A stretch of DNA of 64,000 bases from the IMG/VR virus record IMGVR_UViG_3300030419_006795, positions 1 to 64,000 of that record; one strand, 5' to 3'. The stretch comes from a virus. This document shows, piece after piece, positions 2,455-57,487 of this stretch (position 1 is the stretch's first letter; the number at the start of each line of letters is the position of its first letter). The notes under the pieces are model-generated. The model was given only the letters and a program-made list of their open reading frames with translations, was not told the DNA's origin and did not search any database. The position numbers and the translations under genes are program-made.

Positions 2455-2697
2455 TCATTTTTTTACAATTTGAAAATCAAATACCCAAACGAAAGGCTTG
2501 TCTCCCCTCTTATAAGGTACGCCATGCTTGATTAATTTATCAACATCTTTTTTGTGAATCACTTGGGCATCCCAGCCATCAGCACCCCAAAAATCTTTTG
2601 GCTTTAATACTCGCTTAATAAGTTTAACGCGAACATACTCACTATCAGCCAATGCAAATGAGCGTACCGAAATAATATCGCCGGGTTTGTTTTTCAT
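2455..2697 (-). CDS. Small hypothetical protein (PGDI-type barrel-like)
   Basis: This is an 80-residue protein beginning MKNKPGDIISVRSFALADSE, with later strands (FVWVFDFQIVKK) at the C-terminus. The ATG at 2697 directly follows the tRNA at 2704-2780. The open frame upstream of it is the tRNA read as protein and is rejected. The PGDI start is a looser version of the GDLV start of the other tiny proteins. It is probably co-transcribed with mgtC and the tRNAs. Function unknown. Confidence 0.55.
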   Translation of the reverse strand: MKNKPGDIISVRSFALADSEYVRVKLIKRVLKPKDFWGADGWDAQVIHKKDVDKLIKHGVPYKRGDKPFVWVFDFQIVKK

Positions 2698-2703
2698 AAT
2701 AAA

Positions 2704-2780
2704 TGGTGGGCTCTCTCGGGCTTGAACCGAGGACCATCCGGTTATGAGCCGGGTGCTCTGACCAACTGAGCTAAGAGCCC
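2704..2780 (-). tRNA. tRNA with anticodon CAU (Met or lysidine-type Ile2)
   Basis: A complete cloverleaf on the minus strand: acceptor GGGCTCT/AGAGCCC, D-arm with AGTTGGTC loop, anticodon loop CTCATAA (CAU) on a 4-5 bp CCGG stem, T-arm CTCGG TTCAAGC CCGAG, discriminator A and encoded CCA (2706-2704). Without the modification state, Met and Ile2 cannot be separated. The first base (2780) is also the last base of the TAG stop of the mgtC-like gene, so this tRNA must be cut from the mRNA. Confidence 0.93.
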
Positions 2781-3460
2781 TATGTTTCCTCTTTTCCGAT
2801 AAACATTGAAAATTCATCGTCTTGGATTGTATTTAGAACATTAATTAATGTATCAAGTTGCAAGTCGCTTGGCAACTGAATAATCAAATCAAGTTCAAGT
2901 TTTCTCTTATCTTTGATGTGCGTAGAGATTGAAATAATTTTAACCTTCTTTGATTCCAGAATGGTTCGCAAATCATTGAGAATACGAGGGCGATCGTTTA
3001 ACCGCACCTTCAACTCTCTCACTCTTTTAGGCTTAAAGAGCCAACGAACGGGTCGGCTAATAACTTCCAATGCGAACAGAACAAATCCTGTAATTATCGT
3101 TGCGGCCGCGTGATAGCCTGCGCCGCATGCGATGCCAATAATGGCTGTTGTCCACAGTGATGAAGCAGTGGTGATTCCTTTGACGTTAACGCCAAAACGC
3201 ATAATTGCTCCAGCGCCCAAAAAACCAACACCGCTCACGACTTGTGCAACAATTCGTGCCGGATCGCTCTGAAATTGTGGCGATGAAAAGTCGTGGGAGA
3301 ACGATATTGATAGCGCCGATGCAAGGCACGCACCCATACCAAGAATAATATGAGTGCGAAGACCTGCGGGCTGGCTGTGAATTTCCCGCTCAATCCCAAC
3401 CGCTGCGCTCAATCCGAGCGCAACCAACGCATTAACTCCAAATGCAGCCGTGTCAATCAT
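2780..3460 (-). CDS. mgtC: MgtC/SapB family membrane protein
   Basis: The 226-residue protein has the MgtC/SapB layout. About four to five membrane segments occupy the first 130 residues. They carry the family signatures LGLSAAVGIERE, the GLRTHIILGMGACLASALS block and GVGFLGAGAIMR. A soluble C-terminal ACT-like domain of about 80 residues follows (LKVRLNDRPRILNDLRTILE). In bacteria MgtC acts in magnesium adaptation and modulates the F1Fo ATP synthase; it is not a usual phage gene. Translation is coupled (ATGA, 3460-3457) to a 30-residue gene upstream. Two tRNAs lie between the promoter at 3741-3769 and this operon, and the next tRNA begins on its stop codon. The length is normal and nothing looks broken. 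Confidence 0.88.
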   Translation of the reverse strand: MIDTAAFGVNALVALGLSAAVGIEREIHSQPAGLRTHIILGMGACLASALSISFSHDFSSPQFQSDPARIVAQVVSGVGFLGAGAIMRFGVNVKGITTASSLWTTAIIGIACGAGYHAAATIITGFVLFALEVISRPVRWLFKPKRVRELKVRLNDRPRILNDLRTILESKKVKIISISTHIKDKRKLELDLIIQLPSDLQLDTLINVLNTIQDDEFSMFIGKEET

Positions 3461-3549
3461 TCATCCCCACGTCGGAATCGATCACGAGGATTTTCAAAAC
3501 CCCGCAACCATTCAAATACTTTTATGGCCCACTGTTTAAGTTTGCTCAT
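3457..3549 (-). CDS. 30-residue protein coupled to mgtC
   Basis: A strong AAGGAG precedes ATG 3549. The frame reads MSKLKQWAIKVFEWLRGFEN followed by a basic PRDRFRRGDE tail, and its TGA overlaps the mgtC ATG. The first 18 residues form an amphipathic helix with aromatic residues, suited to lying on a membrane. Short peptides are known to regulate or bind MgtC in enteric bacteria (MgtR, for example), but this one has no sequence likeness I can claim. It may simply be a leader that couples translation. Confidence 0.6.
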   Translation of the reverse strand: MSKLKQWAIKVFEWLRGFENPRDRFRRGDE

Positions 3550-3566
3550 TTCTTCTCCTTTTAAGA

Positions 3567-3641
3567 TGGTGGGTCAACTGGGATTCGAACCCAGAGCCTA
3601 CGGGTTAAAAGCCCGGTGCTCTACCATTGAGCTATTGACCC
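3567..3641 (-). tRNA. tRNA-Lys (UUU)
   Basis: A 75-base canonical tRNA on the minus strand: acceptor GGGTCAA/TTGACCC, D-loop AATGGTA, anticodon loop CTTTTAA, T-arm CTGGG TTCGAAT CCCAG and encoded CCA (3569-3567). It follows tRNA-Leu by five bases, and both sit directly behind the promoter at 3741-3769. Confidence 0.96.
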
Positions 3642-3646
3642 GCAAA

Positions 3647-3732
3647 TGGTAGCTGAAGCGGGACTCGAACCCGCAAGCCCCATGGGCGTCAGATTTTAAG
3701 TCTGATGTGTATACCAATTCCACCATTCAGCC
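3647..3732 (-). tRNA. tRNA-Leu (UAA)
   Basis: An 86-base class II tRNA with acceptor GGCTGAA/TTCAGCT, anticodon loop CTTAAAA (UAA), a long variable arm (around CGCCCATGGGGC), T-arm GCGGG TTCGAGT CCCGC and encoded CCA (3649-3647). It is the first gene after the promoter at 3741-3769. Confidence 0.95.
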
Positions 3733-3740
3733 ATTCATAT

Positions 3741-3769
3741 AATATAGCACCGGAATCTAGACAAGTCAA
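3741..3769 (-). promoter_or_regulatory. Sigma70-like promoter for tRNA-Leu/tRNA-Lys/mgtC
   Basis: TTGACT (3769-3764), a 17-base spacer and TATATT (3746-3741) lie 9 bases before the tRNA-Leu gene. Transcription would begin at or very close to the tRNA 5' end. Confidence 0.7.
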
Positions 3770-6422: not shown

Positions 6423-9400
6423 TTAAACTTGATGCTGATACATAAATATTGTAGGCAGCTCTCTCAGTCCTAAATCTTTAGCGGCAAAGACAATATCAAT
6501 GCCGCCTGTAATTTTTGCTCTCCCGTTTTTTCCTATTGCCACCACAATTGGATTATAAGTGCCGTGATTGATTATGTTCTTTTTAACACTATCGAATTCC
6601 CTTGTGGTGTTTCGATAAAATGGTGAAGTAATAAGCCCCCACAACTCCTCGACATTCACCATTGTGTGATATGACATTTCATTATTGTCAGTGGGTATAT
6701 CGTAGACCCTCTCGCCGCTGCTTACCCACGCATCTATCAAGTCTTGGATTGAGGGTGTTGGTGTGGGAACAAACGGGCCTTGACGCGGCGCATTGGCCGC
6801 ACCAGCAGTCATCCCCCCAAATCCAGCAACTTCGCTAAGTTCCTTGGATACCAGTTCGGCTTTGCCCATGCCTCCGGGGACAATCTTGAATCCCTTTATT
6901 TTTAACAATGATGGCAAAAGCACCAATTTCATGTAATCATCGCGGGATTGGCGACCCAACAATTCGAATTTAATTTTTAATGTCGAGTACCAATTTTGTG
7001 CGTCTTCACGGAAAGTTACCCCACTAACAACAGTGACGCCATCGATTCCACGAATTTCCGTTTCAGTCTCGCCGCGCTGGCCGCCACGCTGTTTTGACAT
7101 GGAGCATTTAATTAGTATCTGGTAAATTCTCAAATCGTATGAAGGATCTCTTTCGTTAATAATGCTCAGGGCTTCTTCAATTAATCTGTCGCGCTCTGAG
7201 TCGCTGTTCCATGTTTTTTTGTTTTCCTGCGCTGGTCTTGGGGCGCCCATTGTGCCGGTGGCCGATGGCGCTTGGTTTCTCGTGACCATGTTAACAGGCT
7301 GCCCACCCATCTTTGCTACTTGGTGGGGTACAAGCTCGCCAAACATAACGGGCGCACCGGTGTTTCTGTCAATCTCTCCCATCTCCGAATAAGAGCGGAA
7401 GTTGTTTTGTAGCATGGGAATAATAAACTTGGTTGCCATGATGTATCTTTCGGCTTCGCCCATATCCGCATAATTATCTTCAAACCATGTAATGATAGCA
7501 TATACTTTCCTTGCTATCTCTGCGGTAGAGCCATATCCCTCTTCGTCTCCATATTGATCCAGTACGTCGCCGTATATCTTTTTGGCATTGTTGATCTGGA
7601 TTTGAAGCTGATAGTTATCCATTATTTTATCTCTGCGTTTGTTAATCTTCTCGCTATGACCTTCAAGAGCCATGCCGATAATCTTGTCAGCAGCAGCAGT
7701 CACAAGTTCTTCGTTCTCGTTCAAGAACGCTGCAATCTCTTGGATAATCTCAAACTCTTCTGGGGGTGATTGAGGGTTGACACGCATGCGATACAGCCAC
7801 TTGATTTTTATAAGAGGATATCTTTCCCGATTGCCGTCTGGGCGGTAGTTTACATCTTGGAACACAACGAAGTCAGTGTCGTCTGCTAAGACCATCGTCG
7901 GATCAGCGCCAGCATGCTTATCACCGAAGTCAAGTTTCTGTTGTCCGGGCGCGCTAGCCTTAGACTTTAAGTGGGTTGTGATGTTTTTGGATAGCTCTCT
8001 CGCGAATTGAATTGAGTAGTCGTTTGTTCCTCGCATGTTGGCAAAACTAAACGCCGGCCCATAACCAAATATTTCACGGAACACCGCATCAGGGTTCACG
8101 CCCATACGATTACCTGTTCCTGTTCCGTACATCTGTGCTCTCGCGGAGTCAAACTTGCCTGTATATGTGTGAAGCGGCTGTCCGTCGTCTGCGGTCCAGT
8201 CGAATTCTAGGCCGCCTTTGTCCTGCTTGACGTGCCACTTGTCAAGGTTTGTGAGCTTCATCAACTCTTCTCGGGAGCGGTCGTAGGCGCTCTTCGCCGT
8301 GTAGCCGCCAGCAGCAAGGTTCTGTCTGATGCTTTCCTTGTATGCCGGGGCCTCATCTTCTTCAAATTCCAGCATGTTGTTGACAAAGACGGCAAACTCT
8401 ATCACCTCGCCATCTTCGTCGACTGAAAATGTTTCATTGCTAAACAGTGTAATGACCAAGTGGACCGTAGGGTCGGGATTTGGATCGAACTCCTCGTCTT
8501 CTGGTTGAGCACCCACGAGTTTTCTTAGGCTGACGTCCCAGTCACCATCATCACCCGGCATCTCATAAATCATGTCATCAATACCAAGTTCGTCGATCAA
8601 CTCACGCAGTCCGCTGTAACTCCGTGGAATGTCCTCAAACTCGGCACCATCCGGGGTGTAGCCCGTGTCCGTTGCGCTGTAATCTGGCCAACCAAGATCG
8701 ATCTCAAAGCTGTATTCTGCGCTGGCGTAGCAGTAAATATCATTCATTTCTTCTTCAAGACTGTAACCAACACTTCCGTGTTGAAGCTCGTCTTGGTTGT
8801 CGTTGTATCGTTCCACTTGACCTTGACAGTACTCTTCTGCTTTCTCTAAGCGGTCTTCAATAGAGCCGTGAAAGTTTGCATTGGTTTCTTGGCTGAGATA
8901 CTCAATCATCTCTTGTATGCCTTCCTGATCGCCTGAGTGCTCGCCTGTCTCTTCTACATTCTCGACACGCATGTTGTCGATGAACCATGCGATGTGATCC
9001 CAAACGTCTTCGGGCGGTGCGTCGTTTTGTCGACCCTTGATTTGATAGATCGTGTTCTCATAATCGCTGTAAGTCATTGTAACATAAGATGATGACTCAC
9101 GTCGCTTGCCTTGCTTCTTGCGGAGAGATACTAGTGTGCCGCGACTGTCAGATCCGCAGTGTCCCATGCGGCTTGCTTCAACATCGCAGGATGACACATT
9201 TAGGTTGTACCAGTAAGAGCCGTCATCAAATGTGTGGATAATGAACTCTGGGTCTTCTTTGTTCGCAAGATATTCAAGTGCCTTGTTTTGAGCGTCCTGA
9301 ATACTGTATTCATCTTTGATAAGTTCGTAGTTGGTCGGGTCATCATTGAGAAAGCTAACAAGCTCAGAGTATTGATTCAACCAGTAGTGGAAGTTCTTAC

Positions 9401-9956
9401 CGGCGAGGCTGCGTAGGTACTCTTTGAAGCTCTCCACCTTCTCGCTTGGAAGGCCGGCCTTGCTCAACGCCTTGACTGCCTTCATAAATGCCTTGCGCCA
9501 TGTACCTTGGGGCTTGCCCAGTGCGTTACGGATGTTCGCGATGACAAAGGCCACTCTCTTATTTTGTTCCATCCTTTCTTCGTCGTAAAAGTCGCGAGGC
9601 TGATTAGATCCTTGATTTAAATCATAAGGCGCCACTACCCGAGCAACTGGATCTCTTGTATATAAGTTTGTGCCGTGCTCATAAGAATTGTTAGTTATAA
9701 CGTAGTTTCTAAACACATCATCAATAAGAAACTGAGCCACCTCCCATTGAAGGTTGTCTACCATGGTAGCATCAGCCATTCCACCGCGGGACTTCTTCCA
9801 ATTATTCGCGATATACATGCGAGCCTTCTCAGATGTGTCCGGCATCGCGTCTTCTAAGTAGTCGATGACAAATTCGGGGAGGCCTATGTCTCGCAGGCCT
9901 TCTGTTAAAACTTCTTCATGTAAATAATTAAACCAACTCGCGGTTGAAATATCCAT
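6423..9956 (-). CDS. Giant 1177-residue protein, C-terminal ParB-like segment
   Basis: This is the longest gene of the window. The N-terminus (SWFNYLHEEVLTEGLRDIGL) is helical. Around residues 255-330 there is a block with MGHCGSDSRGTLVSLRKK, a beta segment (YVTMTY) and YQIKGRQNDAP, which recalls the PcfJ-type conserved core, though I cannot confirm it. Residues 380-560 are very acidic. The last 80 residues (KKNIINHGTYNPIVVAIGKN then GGIDIVFAAKDLG) have the order of strands and helices of a ParB/Srx domain without its usual GxxR box. There are no membrane segments. It stands between the phosphomannomutase and protease genes rather than the virion block, so an intracellular role is as likely as a structural one. 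Confidence 0.5.
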   Translation of the reverse strand: MDISTASWFNYLHEEVLTEGLRDIGLPEFVIDYLEDAMPDTSEKARMYIANNWKKSRGGMADATMVDNLQWEVAQFLIDDVFRNYVITNNSYEHGTNLYTRDPVARVVAPYDLNQGSNQPRDFYDEERMEQNKRVAFVIANIRNALGKPQGTWRKAFMKAVKALSKAGLPSEKVESFKEYLRSLAGKNFHYWLNQYSELVSFLNDDPTNYELIKDEYSIQDAQNKALEYLANKEDPEFIIHTFDDGSYWYNLNVSSCDVEASRMGHCGSDSRGTLVSLRKKQGKRRESSSYVTMTYSDYENTIYQIKGRQNDAPPEDVWDHIAWFIDNMRVENVEETGEHSGDQEGIQEMIEYLSQETNANFHGSIEDRLEKAEEYCQGQVERYNDNQDELQHGSVGYSLEEEMNDIYCYASAEYSFEIDLGWPDYSATDTGYTPDGAEFEDIPRSYSGLRELIDELGIDDMIYEMPGDDGDWDVSLRKLVGAQPEDEEFDPNPDPTVHLVITLFSNETFSVDEDGEVIEFAVFVNNMLEFEEDEAPAYKESIRQNLAAGGYTAKSAYDRSREELMKLTNLDKWHVKQDKGGLEFDWTADDGQPLHTYTGKFDSARAQMYGTGTGNRMGVNPDAVFREIFGYGPAFSFANMRGTNDYSIQFARELSKNITTHLKSKASAPGQQKLDFGDKHAGADPTMVLADDTDFVVFQDVNYRPDGNRERYPLIKIKWLYRMRVNPQSPPEEFEIIQEIAAFLNENEELVTAAADKIIGMALEGHSEKINKRRDKIMDNYQLQIQINNAKKIYGDVLDQYGDEEGYGSTAEIARKVYAIITWFEDNYADMGEAERYIMATKFIIPMLQNNFRSYSEMGEIDRNTGAPVMFGELVPHQVAKMGGQPVNMVTRNQAPSATGTMGAPRPAQENKKTWNSDSERDRLIEEALSIINERDPSYDLRIYQILIKCSMSKQRGGQRGETETEIRGIDGVTVVSGVTFREDAQNWYSTLKIKFELLGRQSRDDYMKLVLLPSLLKIKGFKIVPGGMGKAELVSKELSEVAGFGGMTAGAANAPRQGPFVPTPTPSIQDLIDAWVSSGERVYDIPTDNNEMSYHTMVNVEELWGLITSPFYRNTTREFDSVKKNIINHGTYNPIVVAIGKNGRAKITGGIDIVFAAKDLGLRELPTIFMYQHQV

Positions 9957-51339: not shown

Positions 51340-54330
51340 TTAATCATCAAATGATGCGCCTGTTGAAGCAACGACGAAGTCGATTGCAATAAATTCGATA
51401 GCCCTTGTCGGCTTAATCATTATTTTGGCATACAAAATGTTTTGATCAATCAGGTCTGGTGTGGTAGTAGACTCATCAAGTATAAGTCGGTATTCCGAAA
51501 TTCCAAATCTAGCCTTAGTGTTCGCAAGGAACGGCTCGACTAATGCAATAAATCTATTCCACGTGGCTTCAACATTTTGGTCAAAAAGAACCCTTGTTGC
51601 CATTCTGGAAATCTGTTTCTTGAGATAAATTGTAAGCCTTCTCACATTAATGCGATCAAGTGCAGATTGAGTGTCTTGTAGGGTTTTCTGTCCAAATACT
51701 ACAATTCCATTTGATGGGAAAGACGCAATTGGATTAATATTTGCTTCATAAAGCTTGTCTCTATCTTTTGACGTCAACCTATCGGAAACTGACAGTACCG
51801 GTAGGCCTGCGGCGCCTTGGCTTAAGCCGCCTCTATTGAATCCTGCTGGTGCGAACCAAAGTTCTGATTTTGCCTCCGAACTGGCAAAAACACCAAGCAT
51901 CGGAACAGATGGTGGTACCCAGAATATTCGACCACTTGTCTCATCTTTGATTTGAACCCATGGGTAGAACGTACAGCCATAGCTGCTATCTAAGCCTCGA
52001 TTTCTTAACGTCGAAACAGCATTTGATACTGTTCCCTTTCTCTCTGTTATGCTTTCTGTGCCTTCAGTGTCGGCCGTATAAACATTCTCGATATCAATAA
52101 CCGCTAATGCATCGCCGCGATCTTCACATACGTTCATCAGATGTGTTGTAAGCTGGGCATTAGTTAAGCCGGGAACGGTGGCCAGATTCATCTCTACGAA
52201 CTCTGGATCCGCCACGGTATCAATTGCTCTCTTGATTGTGTTAAAAGCATAGTTGTTGGTTTGCGTGGTGGTCGTACTAAAGCCACTGTTTCTAAGCGGC
52301 TCTGCTTCGGTAATATCGAAACCATCAAAGCCGCCGGCAAATGGCGCTGTAAACTTGTCATATCCTGCATCGAGAATACCTTCATAAGAACTTGAAACAG
52401 CCGTGCAAGACGTTCCTGCAACTCTAGAGCCAGAAGCATATTCAGCATCGTTGCCCTTTCTAACGATATCATCGAGCGTAAATGTATGTGAATACTCCAT
52501 ACCGGTCGATGTGGCTGTTAGGCCGGCCGGCAAGGCTCTAAGCGCCTCGGGGGTGCTCTGGTCATATGCGGTGCTGAATCGGTTGCGGCCTGTTTGGAAT
52601 CCAAAATATGCTTTCCTTAAAGAACCCATGGTAGCGTCGGAAGCACTTACTCTTAATTGCGTAGCGGGGAAGCCAATTGAGGCCGTAATTCTCAAATCGC
52701 CCGGGAGAATGAGATTGGCGGAAGAGCCGGAGGGTGCCTCTTCGGCAAGGCCCGTGCCCTGTCGAATATAGTACTTAAACGTCCAGTCTCCTTCTGAAAT
52801 ATCATTGATGCCCTTAAAGAAGTGATACCCAGTGCCATCAGAGTTTCCGGCAGAATCTAGATTGAGATAATCAGATGGGAAAGAGCCCGATGGGGCGTTT
52901 CTAGGGTTTCCAGAAGCCTGAGCGGCATCGACGCCACTAAGAATAAGAAAATCTCTAGGCTTGGGTGGTCCATAATAGCCAAATGGCAGATAGACCGGAT
53001 CTACAGATCCTTCTGCTACAGAATTAGCAACTTCAACGCGAACAAATTTAGATTGGTTCTTAAAGTCACCCTGCAGGCGTAATCTTCTCTCCCCTTCGTT
53101 CCAAGTGTAGTATTGATCTCCAATTTTTCTTGCGACATAATTTGGAGAAGACGGATCCAAGTTGCAGTTATCGAATCTTTCAATTATCTTTACAGCGTTA
53201 TCGTTGTCTCTAATGTTTCTGAGAACGACCGAGAATGAACCGAATCTGTCGTTTTTGCTAGTCGATCTCTTAATTCTTTCAATTGAAACTTTAACATTTT
53301 TGTGTAACCACTCTCCATTCTCTAATCCGTGCAATCTAAAAAGCTGTGGTGCGCGGCTGTTGTTGTTTGGGTTAAATGTTGCGTAATCGGTGGTAAGGTC
53401 TTGTCCAATAAACCAACCAGCGACTGCATTTTGATAACTTTGTTGATTTGTGTGGTATCCGTACGATCCTGATTGAATTGCCACAATTGCACCCAACATT
53501 GAGCCTGAAAGTCCAAGTTTTCTGACTTGGTTTTCATATGTCTCACCAAGCCAGTATTTTTCTTGATTATCTGTTGCTGTAATCGTTGTGTTCGTTAATT
53601 GTGGGTTTGTATTAAATCTTTTACGAATAAACTTTTCGCTGTTATCATTAAAATTGAAATTTGTCTTAATAATCTGGCCCGGGGTATCGGCGGTGGCGTC
53701 TTGGACTATTACCGTAAACGTGTTGTTGTCAGAATCTAACGCGTCAGTATCCGAATGGAACCAAGCAGCTGAGCCAGTATGAGTCGAGGTGTCGCTAACG
53801 CCCCCAAAGCCTCTGAGGCTGCCTGACAAGACAATATTGTACCCCTTCTTCATATACCAAATGGCAGCCAATGTTCCACTAGCGACAGTAGTCGTAGAGG
53901 CCGAGGGGATCACAAACAGGCCATATGCTCCGCCGTTGTCTTCCGCAGTTGCAGATGCGTTATCCAGCTTCCACCCAGCTTCGCCGGCAGATGATTCATA
54001 ATCGTCGTGCTGGGATCCCAGAAGCCTGACAAAAGTAACAGGGCCAACATTTGACCTCAAATATGCTTGAGCCGCAAACGGGCCATAGGTTGGGCCGATA
54101 TAGTTTCCTTGTCTAGAGACGTCGTCCCCAGCGCCGCCGGCAATTGGATATCCAAAATTCTCTACAAATTGAGAAAAAGAATCTACCTTTACTGGTCGAA
54201 GGCCTTGACCTCGTTCAGATCTACCTATAACAACTGGTCCAATTACATCTGCTGTTCTGGGAATAAAAGAGTTATCAATTTCATTGATAAAGACTCCCGG
54301 CGAGACGAATTTGAAATTCTTTACTGACAT
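51340..54330 (-). CDS. Tail sheath protein, copy B
   Basis: The 996-residue protein begins MSVKNFKFVSPGVFINEIDN and ends IAIDFVVASTGASFDD. It contains the sheath signatures ESITERKGTVSNAVSTLRNR, YPWVQIKDETSGRIFWVPPS, VFGQKTLQ and NVRRLTIYLKKQISRMATRV. The C-terminal 300 residues are nearly identical to copy A upstream and the middle differs by several insertions. It is longer than T4 gp18 (659 residues), with extra surface domains. Two divergent sheath copies may both assemble, or one may replace the other in some conditions. AAGGA is upstream of the ATG. Confidence 0.92.
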   Translation of the reverse strand: MSVKNFKFVSPGVFINEIDNSFIPRTADVIGPVVIGRSERGQGLRPVKVDSFSQFVENFGYPIAGGAGDDVSRQGNYIGPTYGPFAAQAYLRSNVGPVTFVRLLGSQHDDYESSAGEAGWKLDNASATAEDNGGAYGLFVIPSASTTTVASGTLAAIWYMKKGYNIVLSGSLRGFGGVSDTSTHTGSAAWFHSDTDALDSDNNTFTVIVQDATADTPGQIIKTNFNFNDNSEKFIRKRFNTNPQLTNTTITATDNQEKYWLGETYENQVRKLGLSGSMLGAIVAIQSGSYGYHTNQQSYQNAVAGWFIGQDLTTDYATFNPNNNSRAPQLFRLHGLENGEWLHKNVKVSIERIKRSTSKNDRFGSFSVVLRNIRDNDNAVKIIERFDNCNLDPSSPNYVARKIGDQYYTWNEGERRLRLQGDFKNQSKFVRVEVANSVAEGSVDPVYLPFGYYGPPKPRDFLILSGVDAAQASGNPRNAPSGSFPSDYLNLDSAGNSDGTGYHFFKGINDISEGDWTFKYYIRQGTGLAEEAPSGSSANLILPGDLRITASIGFPATQLRVSASDATMGSLRKAYFGFQTGRNRFSTAYDQSTPEALRALPAGLTATSTGMEYSHTFTLDDIVRKGNDAEYASGSRVAGTSCTAVSSSYEGILDAGYDKFTAPFAGGFDGFDITEAEPLRNSGFSTTTTQTNNYAFNTIKRAIDTVADPEFVEMNLATVPGLTNAQLTTHLMNVCEDRGDALAVIDIENVYTADTEGTESITERKGTVSNAVSTLRNRGLDSSYGCTFYPWVQIKDETSGRIFWVPPSVPMLGVFASSEAKSELWFAPAGFNRGGLSQGAAGLPVLSVSDRLTSKDRDKLYEANINPIASFPSNGIVVFGQKTLQDTQSALDRINVRRLTIYLKKQISRMATRVLFDQNVEATWNRFIALVEPFLANTKARFGISEYRLILDESTTTPDLIDQNILYAKIMIKPTRAIEFIAIDFVVASTGASFDD

Positions 54331-54457: not shown

Positions 54458-57400
54458 TTAATCATCAAATGATGCGCCCGTTGAAGCAACGACAAAGTCA
54501 ATTGCAATAAATTCAATTGAGCGCGCGGGCTTGATCATTATCTTAGCGTACAAGATATTCTGATCAATCAAATCTGGTGTTGTCGTCGAATCGTCTAAAA
54601 TTAGGCGATATTCCGAAATTCCAAATCTGGCCTTGGTGTTTGACAAGAGCGGCTCGACTGCTGCTTTAAACCTGTTCCACGTGGCTTCAACATTTTGATC
54701 GAATAAGATGCGGGTGGCCATTCTGGAAATTTGCTTTTTAAGGTAAATCGCAAGTCTTCTGACGTTGATTCTGTCAAGTGCCGATTGCTCTGACTGCAAA
54801 GTTTTCTGTCCGAACACCACAATTCCAGTGTCTGGGAATGTCGCAATCGGATTAATATTCGCCTCGTAAAGAGCATCACGATCTTCGGAAGTCAACCTTT
54901 CCTGCACGGATAAGACTGGCAATCCTGCGGCGCCGTCTGAAAGGCTGCCTCTGTTAAAGCCGGCTGGCGAGAACCAAAGCTCTGATTTTGCTTCCGAGCT
55001 AGCGAAAACACCCAGCATGGCCACAGAAGGAGGCGTCCACAGAATTCTACCTGAAGCTTGCTCTTTGATCTGAACCCATGGGTAGAACGTGCATCCGTAA
55101 CTGTTGTTTATTCCTCTGTTTCTCAAGCTAGTGATAGCTTGTGATACTGTTCCCTTTCTCTCTGTTATGCTTTCTGTGCCTTCAGTGTCGGCAGTGTATA
55201 CGTTTTCAATATCAATTATTGCCAGTGCGTCACCGCGATCTTCACACACATTCATAAGGTGTGTTGTAAGCTGAGCATTAGTTAAGCCGGGAACGGTTGC
55301 AAGATTCATTTCGATGAATTCTGGATCGGCAACACTGTCAATGGCTCTCTTAACTGTGTTGAAAGCATAGCTATTTAGATTGTTTGAAGATATGCTCCAT
55401 TGGCTGTTTCTAAGAGGCTCCGCTTCGGAAACATCGAAACCGTCATATCCGCCAAAGAATGGTGCTGTGAACTTATCGTAACCTGCATCCAGTACACCCT
55501 CATATGAGCCACTTTGGGCAGTTACGGAAAGATTGTTCAAGCGGGAGCCTGAAACCCAATAACCATCCGAGCCGGTCCTTCTAATATCATCCAACGTGAA
55601 TATGACTGAATTGGCCACGACGCCCGGTGAAGTTGAAGTAACATCAGCCGGAAGGGTTCTCAGGATGTCTGGGATACTCGGGTCGAATTCTGTGCTATAT
55701 CTGTCCTTGCTGGCTTGGAAACCAAAGTACGAATCTCTTAGATCTCCCATAGTCGCATCAGAAGCACTAACGCGCAAAGGAATTTCTGGAAACTCAATTG
55801 TTCCTGTAAGATCAAAGCGGCCGGTGTGAATAAATGCGGCGGTGTTTGGCTTGGGGTTGTTACCCATGGCTGCCGAGCCAGTGTGAGCACCACTCTTTGG
55901 GAATGGGAAACTGCTAGAGGCGTGAGCTGCAGTTCCAACAAGACTTCTGGCAATGCTTGATCCAGCCGTGACAAATGCGGACTTGCCTACATCATCACCA
56001 CCTATAAGTGAACCAAAAGTCCCATCTGCACTGGCAGTGTAGGCTTGGTTGTGTGGCACATTAGTTCCACTTACAAACATAAAGTCTCTGAATTTAGGTG
56101 GACCATAAAAGCCGAATGGCAGATAAAGCGGATCTTTTCCACCTTCAGCAATGGCTTCGTCAACTTCAACTCTAAAATACCTAGACTGATTTGGATAATC
56201 ACCTTGCAAGCGCAGCCTTCTCTCTCCTTCGCTCCAAGTGTAGTACTGATCTCCGATTTTTCTAGAAATAAAATTAGGCGATGCAGGGTTTAAATTACAT
56301 TGATCAAATCTTTCCAAAACTTTAACAGCATTGTCGTTGTCCCTGAGTGATCTCAAGACAACCGAGAAGCTGCCATACTTATCGTTTTTTGATGTAGATT
56401 TTTTAATTCTTTCGATTGATATTTTCGCATTTTTGTGCAGCCATTCGCCATTTTCAAGACCATGAAATTTGAACAACTTGGGGGCGCGCAGTGGGGTTGC
56501 AACGCAGAAACTACCAACATCACTTTCAAGATCTTGTCCAATAAACCAGCCGGCCGTAGCGTTTTTGTAGCCCATCTTCATATCTTGCATGCCGGTTTTA
56601 GCGGAGCCAGACTGAATGGCGACAATTGCGCCATATGAGGAGCCTGTTAGGTTTAACTTGTTTAAGCTTCTTTCGTAAGTTTCCCCAAGCCAGTAATACT
56701 CACGATTTGCAGATGGAGTGATTGTCGCATTTGTCAATTGTGGGTTTGTATTAAATCTTTTACGTATAAATTTCTCACTGTTCGGATTGAGGTTAAAACT
56801 CGTTTTGTGTATTGTGGCGCCGGCGGCACTTTGAATGTGTGCGGTAAACGAATTATAGTCACCATCCAAAGAAGAGCTAGTGCTTCCAAAAAGTGCGGCG
56901 GCGCCGTCGAAGTCGGCCAGTAGGCGCCCATCACCATCGAAGCGAGGACCAGAGTAATCTGGGCCATAGCCCCTCAAGGTCCCACTCAAAGTGAGAGTAT
57001 ATCCTTCTTTCAAGTACCATACTGCAGCCAATGTACCCTTTACGGCCGTTCCAATCGATGCAGACGGAACCACAAGTAATCCGTAAGCTCCACCATTGTT
57101 GGCGAGCGTTGTGTTTAAATTGGCAGTGTTCCATCCAGCCAATCCTGTGCTGGTGGCATCATCGTGCTGTGCCCCGAGAAGCCTAACGAAAGTAACGGGG
57201 CCAACTTTAGCGTCCAAATATGCTTGTGCGGCCATTGGCCCATAAGTGGGCCCAATGTCGTTCCCATGACGAGAAACATCCATGCCGCGACCGCCGGCGA
57301 TGGGATATCCAAAATTTTGAACAAAATCAGAGAAAGAGTCGACCTTTATGGGTCTAAGTGCTTGTCCGTGGGCAGATCTTCCAATAACAACTGGGCCTAT

Positions 57401-57487
57401 GACGTCTGGCGTTCTAGGAATGAATGAGTTGTCAATTTCATTAATGAACACCCCCGGCGAAACAAATTTAAAGCTTTTTACTGACAT
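54458..57487 (-). CDS. Tail sheath protein, copy A
   Basis: The 1009-residue protein begins MSVKSFKFVSPGVFINEIDN and shares the length, order and C-terminus (VVASTGASFDD) of copy B. It has the same core motifs (GYPIAGG, TYGPMAAQAYL, AVIDIENVYTADTEG-type region, LRLQGDYPNQSR). Most differences are in residues 130-250 and 450-640, surface-exposed parts in other sheaths. It is the first of the pair in transcription order. AGGAACC precedes the ATG. Confidence 0.92.
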   Translation of the reverse strand: MSVKSFKFVSPGVFINEIDNSFIPRTPDVIGPVVIGRSAHGQALRPIKVDSFSDFVQNFGYPIAGGRGMDVSRHGNDIGPTYGPMAAQAYLDAKVGPVTFVRLLGAQHDDATSTGLAGWNTANLNTTLANNGGAYGLLVVPSASIGTAVKGTLAAVWYLKEGYTLTLSGTLRGYGPDYSGPRFDGDGRLLADFDGAAALFGSTSSSLDGDYNSFTAHIQSAAGATIHKTSFNLNPNSEKFIRKRFNTNPQLTNATITPSANREYYWLGETYERSLNKLNLTGSSYGAIVAIQSGSAKTGMQDMKMGYKNATAGWFIGQDLESDVGSFCVATPLRAPKLFKFHGLENGEWLHKNAKISIERIKKSTSKNDKYGSFSVVLRSLRDNDNAVKVLERFDQCNLNPASPNFISRKIGDQYYTWSEGERRLRLQGDYPNQSRYFRVEVDEAIAEGGKDPLYLPFGFYGPPKFRDFMFVSGTNVPHNQAYTASADGTFGSLIGGDDVGKSAFVTAGSSIARSLVGTAAHASSSFPFPKSGAHTGSAAMGNNPKPNTAAFIHTGRFDLTGTIEFPEIPLRVSASDATMGDLRDSYFGFQASKDRYSTEFDPSIPDILRTLPADVTSTSPGVVANSVIFTLDDIRRTGSDGYWVSGSRLNNLSVTAQSGSYEGVLDAGYDKFTAPFFGGYDGFDVSEAEPLRNSQWSISSNNLNSYAFNTVKRAIDSVADPEFIEMNLATVPGLTNAQLTTHLMNVCEDRGDALAIIDIENVYTADTEGTESITERKGTVSQAITSLRNRGINNSYGCTFYPWVQIKEQASGRILWTPPSVAMLGVFASSEAKSELWFSPAGFNRGSLSDGAAGLPVLSVQERLTSEDRDALYEANINPIATFPDTGIVVFGQKTLQSEQSALDRINVRRLAIYLKKQISRMATRILFDQNVEATWNRFKAAVEPLLSNTKARFGISEYRLILDDSTTTPDLIDQNILYAKIMIKPARSIEFIAIDFVVASTGASFDD

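Follow-up and report, generated by a model that had tools for sequence, protein, structure and literature searches.

An MgtC-family gene set between tRNA genes in a phage contig with T4-type head and sheath proteins

A soluble C-terminal ACT-like domain is found in many, not all, members of the MgtC/SapB superfamily (PF02308). Peptides of the MgtR type bind MgtC and promote its degradation by FtsH. MgtR itself, encoded in the mgtCBR operon of Salmonella, is hydrophobic and spans the membrane (available text of PMC6813294), and the C-terminal part of MgtC is conserved within the Salmonella-type subgroup (available text of PMC4469704). The accessible part of PMC6658541 states that Asn92 of Salmonella MgtC is required for contact with both the F1Fo ATP synthase and PhoR, names an Asn92Thr construct, presents the MgtC–PhoR phosphate activation of Salmonella, and describes the mgtC leader as an RNA of 296 nt that responds to ATP and to charged tRNA-Pro.

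Phage-borne mgtC is already in print: in the accessible part of PMC12371270, mgtB/C are among the virulence genes of Salmonella that searches with Salmonella sequences detected in phages of IMG/VR. A literature search, with subscription journals partly outside its reach, found no paper on the function of phage MgtC or on its tRNA context. As far as these searches reach, the new elements reported here are a clade of phage MgtC-family proteins, its tRNA setting and an empty site.

The locus, its phage and an empty site

The window analysed here is a stretch of 64,000 nt (positions 1 to 64,000) of the virus record IMGVR_UViG_3300030419_006795, a contig of 101,932 bases. Its T4-type major head protein (phrog_138, E 3.1e-72) and tail sheath proteins (phrog_23, E 4.5e-63 and 6.3e-62) assign the contig, by homology, to a large T4-like phage. 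Two large tail-sheath paralogues of 996 and 1009 aa adjoin each other on the minus strand (51340–54330 and 54458–57487), and a trypsin-like peptidase (PF13365) with a hydrophobic N-terminal stretch is encoded between phage genes (5630–6409, minus strand).

All features of the mgtC locus lie on the minus strand and are given in the direction of reading. A sigma-70-like promoter candidate, TTGACT-N17-TATATT (3741..3769; 10/12 match), stands just upstream of tRNA-Leu (UAA; 3647..3732); the region has eight such promoter-like sites against a shuffle mean of 7.9, that is, no excess. The next gene is tRNA-Lys (UUU; 3567..3641), with an encoded CCA end that is abutted by a 17-nt leader (3550..3566). 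A 30-codon frame (3457..3549) follows and overlaps, at ATGA, the start of the mgtC/SapB-family gene (2780..3460; 226 aa). Downstream lie a tRNA with the anticodon CAU (2704..2780) and an 80-aa open reading frame, ORF80 (2455..2697). The tRNA genes were called by both ARAGORN and Rfam. For tRNA-CAU, ARAGORN gives Met, and the acceptor stem of the Rfam match begins at 2780; the five E. coli matches listed all carry the annotation tRNA-Ile, and similar tRNAs in phage records are labelled variously Met, Ile or Lys. We take this tRNA to be probably of the lysidine type (Ile2), not Met.

A counterpart of this region was reached through the nucleotidyltransferase gene (65% identity) in a sister phage, the 82-kb contig L430 (IMGVR_UViG_3300030419_005317). 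It carries tRNA-Leu, tRNA-Lys, 20 nt of spacer, tRNA-CAU and then a homologue of ORF80 (54 of 83 aligned columns identical), and TTGACG-N17-TATATT stands at the same place upstream of its tRNA-Leu. The spacer between tRNA-Lys and tRNA-CAU is thus 20 nt long in L430 as against 786 nt in the window, where it holds the small frame and mgtC. Neither is present at the L430 site, and the L430 record gave no match to PF02308 or to the small frame. Compared with this empty site, the small frame appears to belong to the same insert as mgtC. The single empty site, together with the absence of the MgtC family from 49 of 50 head or sheath relatives (50 of 117 loci were searched, many of them fragments), suggests insertion rather than loss.

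An alignment-based scan of viral sequences returned 98 relatives of the MgtC-family protein, of which 80 were kept. Homologues at 52–100% identity (best segment) occur in seven contigs and in the sister contig IMGVR_UViG_3300030117_007612; the next relatives reach at most 37% identity over most of their length, and 46% at most in shorter stretches. A tree was built by a quick method from 147 proteins, leaving out identical ones and those below 140 residues. In it the six distinct close homologues all fall to the same side of a starred branch with an SH-aLRT of 99, and the nearest bacterial rows, among the bacterial matches listed, are Anaerolineaceae at an unstarred fork. T4-type head proteins were found in five of seven clade records; the other two, fragments of 61.7 and 29.5 kb, gave none. 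On sequence grounds we recognize a clade of six distinct MgtC-family proteins in large, mostly T4-like phage contigs.

In four of the six distinct clade members a tRNA is no more than 33 nt away from mgtC; the loci of L135 and L136 have none. With identical proteins counted once, a tRNA within 150 nt of mgtC occurs in 2/59 other viral rows and, among the matches listed, in 1/80 bacterial rows. Within 1 kb the counts are four clade, seven other viral and, again among the matches listed, two bacterial rows.

Five contigs of 155–204 kb have head proteins 62–72% identical to that of the window phage, and those of three long clade members are more distant (49–67% in the main aligned pieces). Because the closer relatives lack PF02308 in all five cases, mgtC has a patchy distribution across the phage tree, along which it would have been gained, lost or exchanged. 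No host or donor of the gene was found in the bacterial scans, which covered the matches listed and 395 genomes of the Mariniphaga phylum. In that phylum 88 genomes matched, the maximum of 182 bits being the Mariniphaga centre itself; two clade members, which have the advantage of being rows of the profile, score 393–400 bits.

Such patchiness, with the family missing from nearly all head or sheath relatives searched, would suit a passive cargo: an mgtC captured at a tRNA spacer and having little effect on infection. Against this, on several deep phage branches the frames have stayed intact and the membrane-domain residues conserved, and the codon usage of mgtC resembles that of the phage's own genes. 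These three features argue for long retention, and we consider passive carriage unlikely.

The encoded protein

The 226-aa protein matches PF02308 with E 7.4e-36 (123.6 bits; gathering cut-off 31.4), and its C-terminal part matches Pfam ACT_4 with E 3.1e-6 (28.2 bits; cut-off 27). Five helices are predicted between residues 4 and 141, followed by the ACT domain at about 145–226. The earlier note, which had proposed a phage-encoded MgtC, was right on this point, the carrier being a T4-like phage. A PHROG search with the protein gave no match better than E 0.07.

The best NCBIfam match is the YhiD-type model PRK09977, with 114.6 bits, below the equivalog cut-off of 214; three other clade members score 126.6–135.7 bits against the same model and cut-off. 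The Salmonella MgtC model PRK15385 gives 91 bits, far below its equivalog cut-off of 255, with MgtC of Salmonella houtenae scoring 489.8 bits as a positive control. In BLASTP comparisons, residues 4–189 align with YhiD of E. coli K-12 (32% over 196 columns), and only residues 21–130, the membrane domain, align with S. houtenae MgtC (44% over 110 columns). By these comparisons the phage protein is closer to YhiD of E. coli than to MgtC of Salmonella.

An AlphaFold2 model, based on six clade sequences, has five helices and an ACT-like half and is of moderate confidence (pLDDT 72.3, pTM 0.55). The ACT fold of the model, residues 143–226, matches the C-terminal domains of MgtC from Mycobacterium tuberculosis (2lqj; Z 10.3, 3.2 Å, 86 residues) and Pseudomonas aeruginosa (7qa5; Z 9.4, 2.8 Å, 85 residues), with which many other ACT domains tie in the fold match. 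A fold search with the whole model found no PDB match at E ≤0.001, and a second search covered only residues 143–226 well.

The residue corresponding to Salmonella Asn92 was located through a Salmonella-type MgtC from a record labelled Escherichia phage ECO95, used as the numbering row; a 441-base piece of this gene has no match among 5,426 E. coli genomes. The S. houtenae MgtC frame is annotated four residues short, and the numbering was adjusted for this. The Asn92 column is occupied by Thr97 in the window protein and the Cys99 column by Thr104. Threonine is found at the Asn92 column in 9/9 clade rows, in 57/75 other viral rows and, among the matches listed, in 80/80 bacterial rows. Since the bacterial rows share this threonine, we read Thr97 as ‘not of the Salmonella kind’ and not as ‘inactive’: threonine is the usual residue across the family as sampled, and its meaning outside the Salmonella subgroup may differ.

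The remaining viral rows have Asp in one case and Asn in 17 of the 75 (L142, L148, L150–L153, L159, L160, L169, L170, L174, L176, L183, L201–L203 and L207), and 15 of the latter also have Cys99. By these residues, the Asn-bearing rows look like a second kind of MgtC among viral contigs, one closer to that of Salmonella.

A protein working as Salmonella MgtC does would inhibit the host F1Fo ATP synthase, activate PhoR, or both, with more phosphate for phage DNA synthesis as a result. The shared PF02308 domain, the similarity of the membrane domain to that of S. houtenae MgtC and the published phosphate activation through PhoR speak for this reading. It has against it the threonine in place of the asparagine required, according to the accessible part of PMC6658541, for both contacts, the unaligned C-terminal domain and the score of 91 bits against the MgtC equivalog cut-off of 255, and we judge it quite improbable. 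The earlier note had suggested a role in low magnesium and an effect on ATP synthase; both rest on the Salmonella protein and are not carried over by the features tested, and the ATP-synthase effect in particular finds no support in clade proteins that all have Thr at this column. The phage protein probably does not grip ATP synthase or PhoR in the manner of Salmonella MgtC.

The short frame upstream and the tRNA downstream

The 30-codon frame that the earlier note had placed before mgtC, with a strong Shine–Dalgarno (SD) sequence and a stop codon overlapping the mgtC start, is indeed present. The SD, AAGGAG (3555–3560), is located in the leader 5 nt upstream of the ATG of the small frame; by a scripted rule the mgtC ATG has no SD of its own. 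Both frames are also kept in the sister contig 007612, where mgtC differs at 2 of 678 bases, both changes being synonymous, and the small frame at 1 of 89 bases (E30 to K). The two contigs are mosaic. Up to about 6.4 kb they are for the most part nearly identical, and in the compared part of the gene at 6423–9956 they differ at 189 of 2,978 bases. This comparison is therefore uninformative on selection in the small frame.

The peptide had been described as amphipathic and as a possible partner of MgtC. Its helical moment (residues 2–19) is 0.43. When these residues were shuffled 10,000 times, 930 shuffles attained this value, which is thus not significant; the earlier observation therefore holds for the two frames and is weaker than stated for the amphipathic character. 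The peptide is charged, with a maximum mean hydropathy of −0.22 over 19 residues. Its codon usage, tested on as few as 30 codons, scores below that of 98% of 528 segments from real genes and falls at the median of 1,224 open segments outside genes. When the 106-nt gap was shuffled 5,000 times by dinucleotides, 120 shuffles (2.4%) produced a comparable frame, defined as an ATG frame of at least 25 codons with an SD-like site and an end no more than 10 nt from the start of mgtC. ATGA overlaps are common in the window, being found in 8 of 62 adjacent gene pairs of a rough gene set.

Within the clade the small frame occurs in 2/9 rows or 1/6 distinct proteins, those of the window phage and the sister contig; the five other distinct members do not have it before mgtC, and the seven records carrying them gave no match to it. 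Nor did 19 of 20 head or sheath relatives; the one that matched is the sister contig, which doubled as positive control. A search of the phage collection gave no credible match (best E 3), and two codon patterns from the middle of the frame retrieved only the sister contig from the viral collection. Small frames led by an SD and ending at the mgtC start are found in 5/57 other viral rows and, among the matches listed, in 1/78 bacterial rows, with identical proteins dropped and rows with too little upstream sequence left out, and their sequences are unrelated.

Other clade members start mgtC in different ways. L132 and L137 lack the small frame and have an SD at mgtC itself, L131 has a weak SD, and L135 and L136 have neither an SD at mgtC nor the small frame. 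In the last two, TATAAT hexamers stand 5–6 nt before the mgtC ATG (L135, 2457–2462; L136, 2456–2461), a placement from which their mgtC transcripts are possibly leaderless. Small frames of another, hydrophobic sort, each with an SD, occur in two members: that of L131 (276–374; 32 aa) stops 116 nt before mgtC and has a maximum mean hydropathy of 2.8, and that of L135 (2286–2417; 43 aa) stops 50 nt before mgtC and reaches 1.5. They have no PHROG match and are unrelated to the window peptide; by their hydrophobicity they may be small membrane companions of another kind. No clear upstream small frame was seen in L136.

The peptide could be a true regulator or partner of the phage MgtC, replacing an MgtR-like peptide through another mechanism. 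Its place in the same insert relative to the empty site, the overlapping start, the strong SD and its conservation in the sister contig are in favour of such a role. The absence of the pair from five of six distinct clade members, which the earlier note itself had named as the finding that would refute a partnership, the lack of viral matches beyond the sister contig, the unrelated sequences of SD-led frames elsewhere, the codon usage and the absence of hydrophobic or significantly amphipathic character all count against it, and we regard it as improbable. Since the frame is confined to one lineage, has no matches and is not gene-like in codon usage, we rank a translational lead-in above a partner peptide. 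The frame, whose coding status is unproven, would then mainly load ribosomes for mgtC, which lacks a clear SD at its own start; this is probably its role, with the peptide being no conserved partner of MgtC. As to a likeness to MgtR, we rejected the peptide as an MgtR homologue, as it is not hydrophobic and lies upstream of mgtC. A leader of the Salmonella style was rejected as well: the leader is 17 nt long here, with nothing unusual in the folding around it (z 0.08). Of the interpretation in the earlier note, the phage MgtC-family protein is thus supported, and the ATP-synthase effect and the partner peptide are not.

At its other end, mgtC shares a base with tRNA-CAU. The third base of its stop codon, the G of TAG, is G1 of the tRNA at 2780, on which ARAGORN and Rfam agree. 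Such a shared base was seen in 1 of 37 distinct tRNA contexts among the viral loci examined. A sample of 80 loci with tRNAs preceded by TA, taken among the matches listed, yielded 68 usable contexts, three of which end a frame of at least 100 codons on G1; one of these frames encodes a rubrerythrin and one a phrog_18407 protein. The geometry is uncommon, not unique.

RNase P cleaves directly before G1 of a tRNA. A cut at this point of tRNA-CAU would leave an mgtC mRNA ending in UA, a non-stop message. The idea is workable because these phages encode tmRNA, which was found in all eight T4-like contigs above 150 kb examined, four with and four without mgtC (in G052 by Rfam only). The genes are located in L434 (534–866, plus strand), L436 (489–849, minus), L435 (471–810, minus), L439/L440 (one gene), L451, L469, one of the G056 pieces L477–L491 and one of the G011 pieces L458–L467. 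The tags predicted by ARAGORN end in LAA, that of the sister contig's tmRNA included. Two shorter records, G009 and G051, gave no tmRNA over the cut-off, and the 102 kb of the window's own record, which is incomplete, gave none. Annotated phage tmRNAs are known, for example in Streptomyces phages. A specific link between phage tmRNA and mgtC was rejected, as relatives without mgtC also encode tmRNA.

The overlap might accordingly be regulatory, with RNase P trimming the mgtC stop codon and phage tmRNA handling the non-stop mRNA. The locus would then be a tRNA-punctuated operon, as in mitochondria, giving either a mature tRNA and a tmRNA-rescued mgtC message or an uncut message; we see little chance of such an operon here. 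The identity of the two bases by both programs and the tmRNA of the sister contig, with its LAA tag, favour regulation. The overlap is limited to this lineage, however: in the three other tRNA-adjacent clade members the nearest tRNA is 26–33 nt away, and only in L131 is it downstream of mgtC. Similar overlaps elsewhere, in the 3/68 contexts listed, suggest that compactness alone may be a sufficient explanation, and the presence of tmRNA in relatives without mgtC and its absence from the window's incomplete record add to the case against. A regulatory overlap is, in our view, very unlikely.

Working model and comparison with known systems

From the anatomy, family, clade and site comparisons we infer a working model for transcription, coupling and function. 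A 786-nt cargo unit, consisting of the SD, the 30-codon frame and mgtC, occupies the tRNA-Lys/tRNA-CAU spacer of a putative phage tRNA operon that would begin at the sigma-70-like promoter. The tRNAs and mgtC would be carried on one transcript and then parted by tRNA processing. Ribosomes would load at the small frame and pass on to mgtC. Taken as a whole, this account of an insert in a tRNA spacer, with a lead-in frame and a YhiD-like membrane protein, has about an even chance of being correct. More tentatively, and with rather less confidence, we suggest that the protein may be placed in the inner membrane of the host and there, controlled by its ACT domain, adjust ion or nutrient transport of the host during infection.

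The phage mgtC is a modest, well-mapped piece of phage cargo. Its clade suggests that MgtC-family proteins, best known from pathogens, are recurrent cargo of large T4-like phages beside tRNA genes, and the presumed before-and-after site, as given by L430 and the window, is a handle on what this cargo does. The base shared by stop codon and tRNA is a simple test case for how a phage separates the coding and tRNA parts of one transcript; if the non-stop reading were true, the dose of MgtC would be tied to tRNA maturation. The locus is also a warning that neither the ATP-synthase story of Salmonella nor its MgtR-partner story can be transferred by name alone.

Compared with the YhiD/SapB-type protein of E. 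coli (PRK09977), the phage protein aligns over the membrane domain and part of the C-terminal region; it differs in scoring below the equivalog cut-off, in being phage-borne and in its position between tRNA genes. With Salmonella MgtC (PRK15385) it shares the PF02308 membrane domain, whereas the C-terminal sequence is unaligned and Asn92 and Cys99 are replaced by Thr97 and Thr104. The ACT-like C-terminal fold of the model is as in the M. tuberculosis and P. aeruginosa MgtC structures. Like MgtR, the window peptide has 30 residues and is encoded in the same operon as an mgtC-family gene, but it is charged instead of hydrophobic, lies upstream and overlaps the mgtC start. Bacillus phage G (gp262) and Bacteroides phage BKO1-TP1 likewise encode PF02308 proteins or mgtC; the phage G protein differs in belonging to a separate starred branch and in having no C-terminal ACT region.
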